DNA from: Nannochloropsis salina CCMP1776
Taxonomy: Eukaryota > Sar > Eustigmatophyceae > Eustigmatales > Monodopsidaceae
Direction: 5' to 3'
Assembly: GCA_004565275.1 (NCBI GenBank)
Contig: SDOX01000121.1
Coordinates: forward strand, 277,800 to 341,799
DNA length: 64,000 nucleotides
Position numbers and translations under genes: made by a program. This document shows positions 1,550 to 16,296 of the stretch, in pieces. Position 1 is the first letter of the stretch. Each line of letters begins with the position of its first letter. A model generated the notes under the pieces. The model made no database searches, had not been told where the DNA came from, and worked only from the letters and a program-made list of their open reading frames with translations.

Positions 1550-3901
1550 TTACCGAGTCCGCTCCTGGCTCTGCCCCTCGCGGGCCTCCCCACTCAACCG
1601 CGCCAACGCCACCCGCAACTTTTTCACCTCCTTTTCCCTCCGCGCGGTTTCCAAGCGGCTTTGCATCAACGCCTGCGTCAGCCCCTCCATCTCCTCCTTC
1701 CCTGTCTGCCCCTCCCGCACCCGCAGCTCCTCGGCCGCCGCCCGCAAGGCAGCGTGCCGGGCCCCCAACTCCTCCATCTCCTCCCGCATGCGGCCCATGG
1801 CCGTGACTATCCGTGCCTCCGCGGCTGCTTCCACGTCCCGGCGAAATTCTTGCGCAAAGGCCTCCAGCGCTCGGCGGGCGACTTCCCCTTCCTGAATGCG
1901 CACCTGGGCGTCTTCCACCGCCTGCTCCCAGTGCCGACAGTCCGCCCGCGCGGTCCTCAGCATGGCCTCCAGCGCATCTTTCTCCTCCGCGCGTCGGCCC
2001 ATTTCGGCCCCTGCTTCCGACAAAGCCGCGTCCCGTTCGCGCAATTCTTCGCGCAGCGCTTCGCGTTCGCACTGCAGGGTAACCACGCGTCCATGCAGGT
2101 CTTGATTCCGGCCGTGGAGGGCCGAGCAGGCTTGTTCCAGCTCCTGCCCAAGCCGCCGGGCGGCCTCAAGTTCCAATCGGGTGGCTTTGAACGAGGTCTC
2201 GATCGCGCTTTCTCTCCCCGTTGCCTCCGGCGTCCCACCCCTGCCAGTGTCAAGAAAGGGACCACATGGTTCCCCCCCTCCCGTCTGCCCCTTCTCCCCC
2301 CGCCGACTCGAACTCATCGCCCCGTCCACAGCCTCGCACACGCCCTGAGGCTCCCCCACTCCCCCCCCCCGACCTTCCTCAGACCCCTCGCTCAACTCAC
2401 TCCAGGACGGTGGTGGCGCTGAGGGTAGCTGGGGAGGCCTTCCTAAGGTGGCTGGAGACTCTCCTCCTTCCCCTCCTGCCGTCAACACAGCCTCTGGCAG
2501 CTCCGGTCGTTCAATGTCTTCCTCCATAAGCTTGCCCGTGGCCGGAAGAGGCGGGATGTGGACGCGGCGCTCGCCCATGAAGGACTGGACTTGACTTTGC
2601 AGGATACGCTGCAAACCGACGGCCTCCCGCCACGCTGCCGTCGCCCGCGCTTCCCTCTCCACCAAGCTCGCAACCACCGCCTCCTTTTCGCGCAATTTTT
2701 CCTCCAAGCCAACCAACCGCGCGTGCGTTTCTTGAAGCCTCCCTTGACTGGCCCGGTCTTTGTCGAGGAGGGAGAGGAGGTTCCGCTGCCAGGAGTCGGC
2801 CTGATGGTCGCGATGGGCCACGTGCCTCCGGAGCGTGTGCAGCCTGGCGCTGAGCCGATGGTTCTCTTTCTGAAGAGCGTCGCGTTCGGCTTCGAGATCC
2901 GTCAGGCGCGACATGGGGTCGGTAGGTAGGGAGGGAAGGAGGGAGGGAGGGAGGGAGGGAGGGAGGGAGGGAGGGAGAGGGGTCGCTCCTGCCGCGCCCA
3001 CAGGGGTTGTGGCTTGGGAGTCGGCGGACGAAGGAGAGGGCAGAGGGGAGCCATGAGGGCCCCCCGCCATTTCTTGCCAGGAAGAGGGGATAGCAGAGGC
3101 CGGGGGGGACGGCAAGGAAGGAGATGAACCGTGGCGCGGTCGGCGGTTTGTCTGGGAATCGGAGGGCGAGGGCTCTTGGCGGACCTGGGAATGGGTCGAA
3201 TCCTTCTTTTTGAATGCCTGGAGCAGCAAGGCAGGCAAAGCTCCGACGTCAACGCTGCTGCTAGCGCTGTGATTGCCGCCTTTCGCTTTCACGGCGGATT
3301 TCGAATCCCCAGGAGCAAAAAAGGAAGACAACGCAGTGCTTTCCCTGCGGTTGCAGACGGCTGATGTGTCCGCCCTCGATTTATTTTCCTCAAGAACACT
3401 CACACATGCCTCTACGTCAACAGTATTGGGCATATAATCCGTGATATGTACCCCTCCGTCCTTGTATTTCGCTTGAACGTCGAGCAACAGCTGGGGCTCC
3501 CGACCTTGGTAGCGCTTCAAAAAAGCGTCGATTTTGTCTGCATTCTTGGGGTTGTGAGCCCGGTAGAAGTTTTCCAAGGTCTCACGGAGCTCCTCAGTGG
3601 TGAGAAAAGGCACGGAGGAAGGTAATGCGGGTTGGGAGGCCTCACTGGGCCGTGTTGCACCGTTGAGGGGGGTCGCATTATGATGATTGTCCTTGCCGGT
3701 AGAGGAAGGCAACAGGGCCGGTATCAGTGGGATGGACCGTCCCGGCGCATCCAATGGATGTCTTGAATCTACAAGGAGTATACTGCTTCCATCAGGGCCA
3801 CGCGGAACGTCCCCTGAATCAGAGGTCCCGGAGCCCTCGCTATTCATGTCTACATGCTGAAGATGCGATGGCAAAGGCTCGTCTCCATCCTTCCTCTCCA
3901 T
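1550..3901 (-). CDS. Large coiled-coil protein of unknown function
   Basis: The single-exon frame gives 783 residues and starts at an ATG at 3899-3901. Residues about 100-160 hold a compact motif (ELRETLENFYRAHNP, then KIDAFLKRYQGRE and LLLDVQAKY). It resembles a short helical module that recurs in many protist kinesin-like and cytoskeletal proteins. The rest is low-complexity Ser/Pro-rich sequence, a coiled coil at about 335-460, a Gly/Glu-rich linker, and a long coiled coil at about 575-775 rich in Arg, Glu and Ala. A run of PPSL repeats between the first parts is encoded by a (CCCT)n tract at about 2928-2979. This tract could instead mark an unrecognised intron, although the frame is open across it. 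No enzyme domain is visible. A cytoskeletal or scaffold role is only a guess. Confidence 0.6.
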   Translation of the reverse strand: MERKDGDEPLPSHLQHVDMNSEGSGTSDSGDVPRGPDGSSILLVDSRHPLDAPGRSIPLIPALLPSSTGKDNHHNATPLNGATRPSEASQPALPSSVPFLTTEELRETLENFYRAHNPKNADKIDAFLKRYQGREPQLLLDVQAKYKDGGVHITDYMPNTVDVEACVSVLEENKSRADTSAVCNRRESTALSSFFAPGDSKSAVKAKGGNHSASSSVDVGALPALLLQAFKKKDSTHSQVRQEPSPSDSQTNRRPRHGSSPSLPSPPASAIPSSWQEMAGGPHGSPLPSPSSADSQATTPVGAAGATPLPPSLPPSLPPSLLPSLPTDPMSRLTDLEAERDALQKENHRLSARLHTLRRHVAHRDHQADSWQRNLLSLLDKDRASQGRLQETHARLVGLEEKLREKEAVVASLVEREARATAAWREAVGLQRILQSQVQSFMGERRVHIPPLPATGKLMEEDIERPELPEAVLTAGGEGGESPATLGRPPQLPSAPPPSWSELSEGSEEGRGGGVGEPQGVCEAVDGAMSSSRRGEKGQTGGGEPCGPFLDTGRGGTPEATGRESAIETSFKATRLELEAARRLGQELEQACSALHGRNQDLHGRVVTLQCEREALREELRERDAALSEAGAEMGRRAEEKDALEAMLRTARADCRHWEQAVEDAQVRIQEGEVARRALEAFAQEFRRDVEAAAEARIVTAMGRMREEMEELGARHAALRAAAEELRVREGQTGKEEMEGLTQALMQSRLETARREKEVKKLRVALARLSGEAREGQSQERTR
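2928..2979. repeat. (GGGA)n/(CCCT)n microsatellite inside a reading frame
   Basis: About 13 near-perfect tetranucleotide units. Read on the minus strand they encode PPSL repeats in the coiled-coil protein. The G-rich strand has many closely spaced GGG runs and could fold into G-quadruplexes. Confidence 0.85.
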
Positions 3902-4511
3902 TTAATCCACTGCCGCGGTCAAAAGCGCGACCACCACATGCCCACATGCGACCTGTCTCAAATGTAGGGACGTCAGGGACGTCGTATGGTCCTTATCGAT
4001 CGGGGAGGGCGCTTTTACCCCCCGCGATACGGCTTCATAGCACTCGCTTGTCAGGCTATCGCCTCCTGTCGGTTGCGGGTCGGGGAGCTCTGGGCTTCTT
4101 TCTCTCTATGTTCCTACATACCCAAGCACTGCGCTCGCGAACGGCCGCGTCTGGCTGGGACGATTTACGAAGCACAATGAAAAGTATGGGCGGCCTGACC
4201 ATAACTAGGGCGGTTTCTAGTCGCGTGCTTCCGAGTTCGCAGTTATTTAGTCCCCAGACGAATCAGGCTCACACAAAACATGCTTCCCGTCCACACACAA
4301 TGAAACTCATTCGAAGGACAAACATTCCTCTTTGCACCATATATACGTCAAGGTGCAGGACAATACCGCATCACAATCGGCTTCTCCTGTAGCTCCAAAT
4401 TTGGCCGTCCCCAAGGTTCCTTCATACCAATACCAGGAACTCGCTGAAGGAGCTTCTTACCAGGGTCGACCCCACCCTTTGCGCGTTCAGCATTAGTTGG
4501 CTCCATTCACC
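3902..4511. promoter_or_regulatory. Divergent promoter region, coiled-coil gene / KDEL receptor
   Basis: This 610-bp stretch separates two divergent start codons and must hold both promoters and 5' UTRs. No reading frame resembles a known protein. A TATA-like ATATATA lies near 4340, but its role is not established. Confidence 0.45.
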
Positions 4512-5649
4512 ATGTCGATGAACATATTTCGATTTGCTGGGGACATGTCCCACGTCTTTTCTATCATTATCCTCCTCCTACGTTTGCACGTGGCGAAGAA
4601 CGCGAATGGTGTGTCTTTGAAGACCCAGGAGCTCTTCCTCATCGTGTTTTGCACGCGGTACCTGGATTTATTGATACGCTTTATATCACTGTACAACTCG
4701 GCGATGAAGATTTTGTACATAGGCTCCACGGCTGGTGAGTGGGGGTGTTAGTGCACACGGCAATGAGGGAGACGGGAGAAGGCAGGGGGTAGTGCCTGAC
4801 TTGGCACATACATTTGCATGTATGTATGTGCTATACACGACTTCTGACGTGGCGGACGGAATGAAAAATACGGCAATAATACGCTTTCTCATCCGTCCCC
4901 CCCCCTTCAGCCATCATCCACATGATTCGATACCGAGAGCCCTACCGGAGCACGTATGACAGGAGTCAAGATTCCTTCCGGTTGGAGTTCGCCTTGATCC
5001 CATGCTTGGTCCTCGCCATGATCACGAGCCTGATCCGGGGCTTCGGCTTCATTGAGGTGAGGGGCAAGGAAGGGGAACGGAAGGAGAAGGAAGAAGGAAA
5101 CAGGTGCCAGGACCCTGGTCTCGCCGCTCACCCTTCTCCCTGCCTCTGCCGCCCCCCCCTTCCAGTTGTTCTGGACCTTCAGCATCTATTTGGAAGCCGT
5201 GGCCATCCTGCCGCAGCTCATTGTCCTGCAACGGTACAGCGTGGTGGAGAATCTGACGGGGCATTACATCTTCTTCTTGGGCGCCTACCGGGGGCTATAC
5301 ATATTGAACTGGGTGGGTGGTTGATAGGGCGGGAGGGAGGGAGGGAGGGAGGTAGGGAGGAAGGGGCATGTGCGGGTCTTGCTTGGGGGCACGAGGGAGG
5401 GCGGGGGGCTTTGTGCCCGGTCCCGTGTCGTCTCGTCTCCCGACGGCCTTGACTTAATCCTGTTGATCCCACTCTCCCCCCCAGATCTATCGCGCCTACA
5501 CAGAAAAGCACTACCATCACGACTACGTGGTGTATGCCTGCGGGTTTGTGCAAACGGCGCTCTATGCCGACTTTTTTTACTACTATTTCCAGAGCAAGTA
5601 CTACGGAGGCACGTTCTCCTTGCCGACGTCCTCCGCCGGGTTCAAATAG
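4512..5649 (+). CDS. ERD2: ER lumen protein-retaining (KDEL) receptor
   Basis: This seven-helix membrane receptor returns HDEL/KDEL-tagged proteins from Golgi to ER. Four exons join in phase: 4512-4734, 4911-5056, 5166-5312 and 5485-5649 (226 residues; animal family members are about 212). All three introns are GT-AG. The start MSMNIFRFAGDMSH fits the family N-terminus MNIFRLxGDxxH, and its ATG has the context ACCATGT. Family signatures follow in order: TRYLDLLIRFISLYN, DSFRLEF, FWTFSIYLEAVAILPQL, FFLGAYRGLYILNW, and DFFYYYFQSKYY near the C-terminus. The upstream TTG in the same frame at 4497 is not a credible start. It diverges from the coiled-coil gene and converges on exportin-5. Confidence 0.95.
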
Positions 5650-12625: not shown

Positions 12626-13250
12626 GGGCCTGTAATGTGATCAATCCTCCTGTAAAGTGTGAATTTGGGTGTTCCGTGAAAGAATGAACATGTCAAATGA
12701 GAGAAAAACGCGAGAAGGCAAGCACATCAATGAGCAACGGGTTTAGACGTGGAGGACACGTCGATGCGAACGCGCAAAAGTGTAAGACGCAAAGCACTTC
12801 ACTGTTCTATCTTTCGACATTGAAACCCACTGAAGAAACGTGCATGTGGCAGACATTGTGCGTACGGATTGCAATCTTGGGTGCCCACTGGCTCTGGGTA
12901 TGTCAACTTTCGTCTTCGCCTGATGCTCGCTCTCCGCTCTAGTTGCGTGCTTCTTCAGCTTCAGTCCCCACTCCCACGCCCGTATATCTCCTCAACCAGG
13001 CGTTTTCCAGTTCACAAATGTGGAACTACACAGTCATTTTCTATGTGACACTGTGTGTCGTCATGTAAAGTTCGACCTCCACCCTGCCACTGCCGGGTAG
13101 AAAGACGGAAACCAAGGAGACTAAGTCTCGTTGAACACCACACTTGCACCGGGCAACATTCCTCCTTTGACCGTACACCTTATCATCGCAGGGTCCCTCA
13201 AAACAAACAGAGCCTAGGGTGGAAGCGGCCTCCTAGGAATCCAGTCTCGC
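12626..13250. promoter_or_regulatory. Divergent promoter region, EIF1AD / class II ribonucleotide reductase
   Basis: 625 bp between divergent starts. There is no credible coding sequence or RNA gene. It probably carries both promoters. Confidence 0.4.
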
Positions 13251-16200
13251 ATGCTGGGAAGCTCTGTCGGCGCGCGGAGACTGCTCCAAGTCCGGCCATC
13301 CCCTGCCATTACACCCGGGTGGTCATCCGCGTCTGCGTCTATAATACATCGACCGAAGCTTGCTTTGGCTTCGAACCTGTCTCGGCTTCTATACCCTGCC
13401 AGTTTCTGCACGTCCCCATCAATTTTGCGTCAGAAACAGGCCTGGGTAGCTTTTGCCCTAGACCTCGGGCCTCTGCCCCGTGCACGGAGACGGCATAGGC
13501 CACCGACACCCATCATGGAACGTTACTGCCGCCCGATCTCATCATCCTCCTCTCCGTCCGCCCCCTGCTCCACCTCCGTCGGCTCCATCCCGGAGGGAAG
13601 TGCCGGCGCACCTTCCCCTCCACCGTCCCCGGTGGGTCTTACTGCCAAGCAGCCTTCGTCCCGCACCAGTCAGCCGGGCCATACCTGCCACGCCCACAGC
13701 CGCCGCGTTGGCAACAATCGTACACTCAATGCTGCACATTGCTGGGAAAAGGATGTTGCCTCCACCAGCACCGCTGCCGCATTCTCTTCCTCCCCGCTCC
13801 CCGCGGACCCCCCCGCCGCACCCCCTGCTCACCCGCCCTCCCAAGCTGACGACACCGTCCCCCCCCACAAATTCCGGCTCGACCCAAGCTTTGTCCAGCA
13901 ATGGGAAGACGAGGATCCTCCTTTCGGGTTCAACGGTCTGGGCGAATTGGTGTACCACCGGACCTATTCCCGGATGAAGGCGGACGGGGAGCATCGGGAG
14001 AGATGGTTTGAAACGGTGGGGAGGGTCGTGAACGGGACCTTTAGCATGCAAAAAGAATGGCTGTTGCGGCAAAGTTTGGAGTGGGACGAAGAGCGCGCTC
14101 AAGGACTTGCCCAAGAAATGTACCGGCGCATCTTCGAGATGAAATTTTTGCCGCCCGGCCGGGGCCTGTGGGCGATGGGCACGACCCTGACGGAGGACCG
14201 CCGCTTGTACGCCGCGTTGAACAACTGCGGCTTTGTCTCCACCCAAGACATGGCCAACGATCCTTCCGCGCCTTTCGCCTTCCTGATGGACGCCTCGATG
14301 CTGGGCGTGGGTGTAGGTTTCGACACTTTGGGGGCGGGCCGGGTCACGGTTTGGGGCCCCAACCGGCGTCCAGAGGCCCGCAAGACCTTCGTCATCCCCG
14401 ATTCCCGGGAAGGCTGGGTGGAGAGTGTCAAGTACTTGATCGACGCCTATTTTTTGAACCTGCCGTTGCCGGCCTTCGATTATTCCTCGATCCGCCCGGC
14501 GGGGTCGCCCATCAAGGGGTTCGGGGGCGTGAGCCAGGGCGGGGAGATCCTGGAGGCCTTGCACGGGGAGATCCAGGGGGTCCTGGACCCGATCGTGGGG
14601 GAGCCGGTGAGCGTCACGGCCATTGTCGACATGATGAACCTGATTGGGAAATGCGTGGTGGCGGGGAATGTCCGGCGCACGGCGGAGATTGCCTTCGGGG
14701 CCCCGGAGGACGAGGAGTATGTGGACCTGAAGAACTACGAGAAGAACCCCCACCGGGCGGCCTACGGGTGGACGAGTAACAACAGCGTCTTTGCGAGTGT
14801 GGGCATGGACTACGAGAACGTGTGCGAACGCGTGCAACGGAACGGGGAGCCGGGCTTTGCCTGGTTGGAGAACATGCGGGCCTATGGGCGGATGGGGAGT
14901 CCCCCGGACTGGAGGGATGCTCGGGCGATGGGGGGCAACCCCTGCTTGGAACAGACGCTAGGTAGGCCAAGGCATTTGTGCGCAGAGAGTAGGACTGCAG
15001 TCATGCAATGAGACGAGCTTTGTGGCCTGCGCTTTCTTGTTCCTCTTTTTCATTCCCTCCCTCCCTCCCTCCCTCCCTCCCTCCCTCCCTCCCTCCCTCC
15101 CTCCCTCCCTCCCCCTCGCAGAATCCTTCGAGCTCTGCTGCCTGGTGGAAACCTTTCCGGACAAGCACGACAGCCTGGAGGACTTCCTGGCCACTTTGCA
15201 GTTCGCCTTCCTGTACGCAAAGACCGTTACCCTGGGCCCCACCCACTGGGCCAAGACCAACGCCGTCATGCTCCGGAATCGGCGGATCGGCTGCTCCATG
15301 TCCGGCCTGGCTCAGTTCGTGACGAGGAAGGGGATGGGGGAGCTGCACCGGTGGTGTGAGGTGAGGAGAGGGGAGAGAGGGGGAAGTCGTATCGTCCGCC
15401 GCGACTTACCCGAGGCCCGTGCCCCTTCCTCGCCCGTCCTCCCTCCCTCCCTCCCTCCCTTCCTCAGGAAGGATACCAGACCCTACAAGAGGCCGACCAG
15501 CGGTACAGTGAATGGCTGTCCATCCCCCGCTCCGTCAAAACCACGAGCATCAAGCCGTCGGGGACCGTCTCCCTCCTTGCCGGCGCCACGCCCGGCATGC
15601 ATTTTCCCGAATCCAGATTCTACCTTCGCCGCGTCCGGCTGGCCAAAAACAGCGAGCTCCTCCCTCCCTTGCTGGAGGTGGGCTACGTGGTGGAGCCGGC
15701 GGCGGGCGACCCGGAGAGGACGTGCGTGGTGGAGATTCCGGTGGACGTAGGGGAGGGAGTTCGGACCCTGAAGGAGGTGGGGCTTTGGGAACAGGTCGCA
15801 TTCGCGGCTTTTCTCCAACGGCATTGGGCGGACAACCAGGTGCGGAAGTAGGGAAGGGGGGGGAGCAGGGTGGGAGGGAGGGATGGGCGTGTCGAGAGCG
15901 CTGCTATATACATGTGTTGTGACGGACATGGTTTCTTCCCTCTTTCGCCCCTCCCCCCTCCCTCCCTCTCTACCCAATTCCGTGCGGCAGGTGAGCTGCA
16001 CCGTCACCTTCGACCCCGCCACGGAAGGCAAAGACTTGGCCCGCGCATTGGATGTCTTCCAATACCAACTCAAAGGCATCAGTTTCCTGCCCAAAATGGA
16101 GGCGGGGGCTTACCCGCAAATGCCCTACGAAGAGATCAGCGAGGAGGACTACCGGAAAAGGACCGAGAGGCTGCGCGGGCGGCGGCCAGATTTCTGGCGG

Positions 16201-16296
16201 GGCGGGGCGGCGGTTGAGGACAAGAAGGAGGAGCTCTTGGACAAGTTCTGTGAGAGCTGTTCCACCAATGTGGAGGACCGGAACGAGGAGAAGTGA
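13251..16296 (+). CDS. Adenosylcobalamin-dependent (class II) ribonucleoside-triphosphate reductase
   Basis: Makes deoxyribonucleotides using a cobalamin-derived thiyl radical, with no separate radical subunit and no need for oxygen. Exons 13251-14961, 15122-15360, 15468-15839 and 15991-16296 join in phase (875 residues); all introns are GT-AG. The sequence aligns with the monomeric Lactobacillus leichmannii reductase. C326 in NNCGF corresponds to its C119. N563, C565 and E567 in GNPCLE form the active-site triad, with C565 as thiyl residue, and C576 lies 11 residues on, as in C408/C419. A C-terminal CESC pair (861/864) probably re-reduces the active site. MLGVGVGF and SGTVSLLAGATPGMH are further signatures. 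The first ~200 residues are Ser/Pro/Ala-rich and may hold an organelle presequence. An internal ATG at 13515 is an alternative start. A (CCCT)n tract serves as the polypyrimidine tract of intron 1. Confidence 0.93.
15051..15116. repeat. (CCCT)n tract acting as an intronic polypyrimidine tract
   Basis: About 15 CCCT units end a few bases before the CGCAG acceptor of reductase intron 1 (14962-15121). They stand where a polypyrimidine tract is expected. Confidence 0.85.

Follow-up and report, generated by a model that had tools for sequence, protein, structure and literature searches.

A spliced gene predicted to encode a monomeric class II ribonucleotide reductase in the nuclear genome of a Nannochloropsis-like alga

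Class II ribonucleotide reductases (RNR) are known from several eukaryotes. According to excerpts of the respective papers, the monomeric type in Dictyostelium, Euglena, Monosiga and Phytophthora represents transfers from bacteria (Lundin et al. 2010, PMC3019208), and class II enzymes also occur in non-Dikarya fungi (PMC8085122) as well as in Euglena, haptophytes, chlorarachniophytes and Chlamydomonadales (PMC11439496), the haptophyte C. tobin being described with class I only (PMC4580454). In the literature searched, whose supplements may tabulate one, no class II RNR was found named for Nannochloropsis or another eustigmatophyte; the term “ribonucleotide reductase” is absent from the main texts of PMC3499364 and PMC8570151. 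Here we analyse a stretch of 64,000 nucleotides (the window; C14:277800-341799) from the assembly of Nannochloropsis salina CCMP1776 (26.5 Mb, 103 contigs), which carries a spliced frame predicted to encode such an enzyme at positions 13251-16296 of the forward strand. With this gene, a further member of the already reported eukaryotic class II RNRs, a photosynthetic Nannochloropsis-like alga joins the scattered eukaryotes that have a B12-dependent RNR.

The explanation that we prefer, with a probability of roughly 0.78, is that the gene encodes a functional nuclear monomeric class II RNR which was acquired horizontally and supplements the class I enzymes independently of oxygen and iron, using scavenged cobalamin. 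It draws directly on the sequence, the gene structure, the active-site residues, the first half of the fold, the genome context and the relatives of the protein.

The frame consists of four exons and three introns, all on the plus strand, and its joined product comprises 875 amino acids. Exon 1 (13251-14961) is followed by intron 1 (14962..15121, 160 nt), exon 2 (15122..15360), intron 2 (15361..15467, 107 nt), exon 3 with the KPSGTVSL motif (15468..15839), intron 3 (15840..15990, 151 nt) and exon 4 including the stop codon (15991..16296). All three introns have GT..AG borders; introns 1 and 3 would introduce an in-frame stop when retained, and the length of intron 2 is not a multiple of three. 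Within exon 1 an upstream open frame encoding a putative protein part of 206 residues (13251..13868) precedes the catalytic part (13869..14961), which contains the RNR alpha domain, a shortened dimer-mimicking insertion domain and the first half of the barrel. As a predicted gene the spliced frame is confirmed as real, far beyond chance.

The joined protein matched the TIGR02505 profile (RTPR) at 1.7e-100 with 337.3 bits and passed the cut-offs of PF17975 (RNR_Alpha; 135.4 bits, cut-off 26.4) and PF21995 (dimer-mimicking insertion domain; 41.5 bits, cut-off 27), the latter match covering profile positions 33-97 of 107 only. The sole solved structure matched by sequence at E 0.001 or better was 1l1l (6e-91, from residue 89 onward), and the first half of the fold is of the 1l1l type and not of the dimeric class II or the class I type. 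In the family-profile scans no Ribonuc_red_lgN or ATP-cone domain was detected in the protein; both are present instead in the two class I R1 genes of the genome. A partial loss of the insertion domain was considered and dropped, as the aligned phage and archaeal relatives are equally short.

In the alignment, the putative redox cysteine C326 (14226..14228), the residues N563, C565 and E567 (encoded with P564 and L566 at 14937..14951, C565 being the predicted thiyl-radical cysteine) and C576 in exon 2 (15136-15138) pair with positions 119, 406, 408, 410 and 419 of 1l1l, and all five are invariant in 159/159 rows, the window included. These rows comprise the window protein and 158 unsplit proteins out of the 166 loci L018-L183, eight loci with split matches (L090, L094, L097-L101, L103) having been dropped; the 80 loci of a second viral set stand outside this count. 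The apical phosphate-binding loop reads PPGR (residues 301-304, 14151..14162), with the G and R present in all 159 rows. The pattern P-x-G-R is given as a triphosphate-reductase motif in an excerpt of PMC8365446, and the loop predicts NTP (ribonucleoside triphosphate) substrates for the enzyme. The C-terminal redox pair was found as C861-E-S-C864 (16249..16260) in the tail alignment. Among the last 60 residues of the 159 rows a CxxxxC pair occurs in 149 and no such pair in nine, whereas the spacing CxxC is confined to the window. The class I R1 encoded on contig C6 likewise ends in CxxC (CLTC), and on this tail it could be tested whether a transferred enzyme has adapted to the reductants of its eukaryotic host. 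Thus, the class II assignment and the active-site set (C326, N563/C565/E567, C576, CESC) named by the preliminary description were borne out.

The window sits within a contig of 620,624 bases, and nine of ten neighbouring frames scanned gave Pfam matches, including those to Exportin-5, CSE1, CLASP_N and the two gamma-tubulin complex domains. A genome search with the window protein returned its four exons and no other match at E 0.001. The genome contains 34 light-harvesting (PF00504) matches, and one of these proteins is identical to VCPI-2 of PDB 8zo9 at 205/223 positions. Since VCP is the name of the eustigmatophyte antenna, the genome is here called Nannochloropsis-like. The gene belongs to the alga's own nuclear genome, in line with the earlier claim of a nuclear, spliced gene free of bacterial contamination.

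Relatives were collected from two sources. Among genome_contigs 348 stretches fit the search patterns and 98 encode relatives, of which 80 were kept; the viral_contigs yielded at least 588 relatives among 600 stretches in a first set and at least 585 among 600 in a second, with 80 kept from each. Among the matches listed, the closest (60-66% identity) are marine viral contigs, contigs of metagenome-assembled genomes (MAG) grouping with them, and MAGs of Woesearchaeota/Nanoarchaeota, followed by Flammeovirga (56-57%) and most Lokiarchaeota (47-50%), while named phages or plasmids reach at most 47%.

In a tree of 36 rows the window, 11 phage-type rows and seven DPANN/CPR rows form one clade (100/99), within which two groups are seen, one of all the phage-type rows (97/98) and one of all the DPANN/CPR rows (100/96). 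The window has an own branch of 0.75 substitutions per site and is not placed inside a bacterial clade, so that the nesting among bacterial sequences considered in the preliminary description was not seen in the sampled tree. When the doubtful rows L074 and L114 are removed, the window branches outside these two groups (87/79, unstarred). Neither its joining to the phage-type rows (p-AU 0.254) nor to the DPANN/CPR rows (0.184) was rejected. Joining it to Flammeovirga (p-AU 0.0008) or Lokiarchaeota (3e-53) was rejected.

Several features of the relatives were observed in passing. The marine MAG contigs L024, L026 and L028 (labelled Euryarchaeota, archaeon and Rickettsiales), whose RTPR groups with the viral contigs, may be misbinned phage; for L024, whose neighbours alone were viewed, 5'-3' exonuclease-like and DnaB-like frames were named by eye. 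A NrdR-like zinc-ribbon frame lies, by eye, just upstream of nrdJ in the DPANN/CPR MAGs L029, L030 and L033. Furthermore, the NrdJ frames of Lokiarchaeota and of a Nitrosotalea MAG contain intein-like insertions that keep the reading frame and lie immediately ahead of the catalytic cysteine (NPC), at the subsequent ELCC cysteines or at both; of this set L094, L097, L100 and L103 were translated, and L098, L099 and L101 are represented by split matches only.

The search of the whole genome for class I genes, suggested in the preliminary description, was run and revealed two R1 genes, on C6 and C45, each encoding an ATP cone and a barrel. It also revealed an R2 gene on C52; its exons together span positions 11-281 of the 281-position profile, and the final exon scores under the cut-off. 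The second R1 (C45:112500-119000, L004; frame 2006-4750, minus strand) has a signal-peptide-like start (MPRPVLLLALVALGLLHIPTHA) and ends at barrel profile position 505 of 523, so that a 3' exon may be missing. In C2:154000-160500 (L185; about 1728-2582, plus strand) a lone R2 first exon (PF00268 positions 1-39) is preceded by a hydrophobic leader, and inspection by eye showed no other R2 exons in its vicinity.

Both class II RNR and methylmalonyl-CoA mutase need adenosylcobalamin (AdoCbl). The genome gave one match for MetH, two for PF01717 (the MetE catalytic domain; the MetE N-terminal domain was not sought) and three pieces of a methylmalonyl-CoA mutase with the DxHxxG motif, two of these pieces containing an in-frame TGA, which unspliced frames can have. 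Because MetH, the two MetE-type matches and the mutase are encoded, B12 is probably used by the alga but replaceable. In an excerpt of PMC3499364 vitamins gave no growth enhancement of N. oceanica in liquid culture. With two class I R1 genes, R2 and MetE-type matches encoded, the supply of deoxyribonucleoside triphosphates (dNTPs) need not hang on cobalamin, contrary to what the preliminary description had assumed, and DNA synthesis is probably not dependent on B12.

In the explanation that we prefer, activity, cofactor use, NTP substrate and regulation would follow the pattern of the family. The enzyme would reduce ribonucleoside triphosphates directly to dNTPs, homolysis of AdoCbl generating a thiyl radical on C565 by chemistry established for the family. 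Reducing equivalents would come from C326/C576, which the C861/C864 tail pair would in turn re-reduce. Specificity effectors presumably bind the dimer-mimicking insertion domain, and with no ATP cone detected, dATP probably does not shut the enzyme off as a whole. As to the physiological role, the enzyme would supplement class I when scavenged cobalamin is available, and it would need neither iron nor oxygen. With regard to the direction and age of the transfer, the gene would have been acquired horizontally from the gene pool that marine phage-type contigs and DPANN archaea represent today, at a time remote enough for three introns to have been gained since.

Some points weigh against this explanation. 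The splices and the enzyme function are predictions from the sequence. The TIGR02505 score lies 2.7 bits below the curated cut-off of 340.05, hence the protein is classed as monomeric class II only and not as an equivalog of bacterial RTPR; six of eight relatives tested passed this cut-off, four of the eight having been entered as the matched stretch alone, and those below it were L029 (339.4 for its matched stretch) and phage L018 (319). Furthermore, no cobalamin adenosyltransferase was found, which leaves the source of the cofactor unexplained: PF01923, TIGR00636 and PF02572 had no match in the genome, the motif YTxTGD had none (control 0), and CRRAER had 15 compared with 14 in the reversed control, all 15 of which were translated and none looked enzyme-like by eye, although a short intron-split gene could escape the search. 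Finally, residues 1-175 lack a codon-usage signal, and the codon at 13251 may not be the true start.

In-frame ATGs occur only at 13251 (codon 1) and 13515 (codon 89), with an in-frame stop upstream at 13215; the catalytic part has no ATG of its own, so some upstream start must be translated. The codon-usage score, trained on 16 other window frames and read in blocks of 35 residues, was -0.12 to -0.27 per codon over residues 1-175 and 0.04 to 0.49 in every later block, the reference values being 0.20 (training gene), -0.02 (antisense frame) and -0.20 (intergenic stretch). Another frame scores equally or higher in all of the first five blocks, and a reverse-strand frame equals or beats the score in three later blocks too (176-210, 351-385 and 666-700). 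The GC content at third codon positions (GC3) is 0.51-0.69 in residues 1-175 and 0.69-1.00 thereafter. Three AGs of the N-terminal region are preceded by pyrimidine-rich stretches, the richest (20/25, compared with 18 to 25 at the three known introns) marking a possible 3' splice site at 13844-13845. The extension of about 200 residues, read in the preliminary description as a sign of domestication, thus provides no such evidence, and extension and presequence are both putative. Overall, that earlier interpretation is partly supported.

The N-terminal frame is also central to a possible, though rather doubtful, alternative in which it serves as a mitochondrial presequence, dNTPs being made by the enzyme inside the mitochondria, where AdoCbl arises. 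Residues 1-70 contain eight K/R but neither D nor E, an amphipathic stretch lies around residues 29-49, and the need for upstream translation agrees with this scenario; moreover, the codon-usage score mixes codon and amino-acid make-up, so that a genuine targeting peptide would score low too. However, 11 of the 537 open frames of 70 codons that begin with ATG in the window have a like charge pattern, other frames score as high or higher over the signal-free residues 1-175, and an excerpt of PMC11439496, which places AdoCbl production in mitochondria, states RNR-II to be cytosolic. It seems less likely still that a eustigmatophyte ancestor captured a marine phage/DPANN enzyme, shortened its tail from CxxxxC to CxxC as in its own R1 to suit host reductants, and confined it to a separate compartment; in that case a plain R1 (C6), an R1 with a signal-peptide-like start (C45) and an organellar class II enzyme would coexist in the cell.

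The presence of class I R1 and R2 and the missing adenosyltransferase match would also suit an expressed but idle or decaying relic that contributes little. Such decay is improbable taking into account that frame and active site are intact after 0.75 substitutions per site and that the codon-usage signal is strong. The opposite view, in which the class II enzyme is the alga's main RNR and DNA synthesis depends on B12, agrees with the AdoCbl requirement of the enzyme class but is very unlikely given the two R1 genes with ATP cone and barrel, the R2 gene covering profile positions 11-281 and the two MetE-type matches. A contaminant of bacterial or phage origin, or a chimera of the assembly, might be suspected from the phage-type and archaeal affinity of the closest sampled relatives; yet the three introns of spliceosomal type, the eukaryotic genes on both sides, the position inside a 620-kb contig and a top identity of 66% to any sampled relative render it extremely improbable.

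The Nannochloropsis lineage has genetic tools. If the genome is that of Nannochloropsis or close kin, the role of a second, oxygen- and iron-independent RNR could be addressed in a tractable alga that probably does not need B12.

Compared by description and not by sequence, the window shares with the other eukaryotic class II RNRs the occurrence of such an enzyme in a eukaryote, mostly ascribed to horizontal transfer in excerpts of PMC3019208, PMC8085122 and PMC11439496. Class II RTPR is common among marine viruses, whose ecology is treated in an excerpt of PMC10547690. The marine viral-contig enzymes (IMG/VR L104-L112, L188-L267) are 61-66% identical to the catalytic part of the window protein and, in the four aligned, have a similarly short insertion domain, but they are encoded by unsplit single frames and have a CxxxxC tail where examined; those of L189, L208, L220 and L251 adjoin frames resembling, by eye, a phage replication module. 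NrdJ of DPANN/CPR (L029-L031, L033-L035, L040) shares 54-62% identity and falls into the same clade as the window and the phage-type rows, but is prokaryotic. In comparison to the monomeric class II RTPR of Lactobacillus leichmannii (1l1l), the window protein is about 30 residues shorter in the insertion region, as are the proteins of phages L018 and L019, and is encoded by a spliced nuclear gene, its tail pair being spaced CxxC where that of L. leichmannii is C731/C736.
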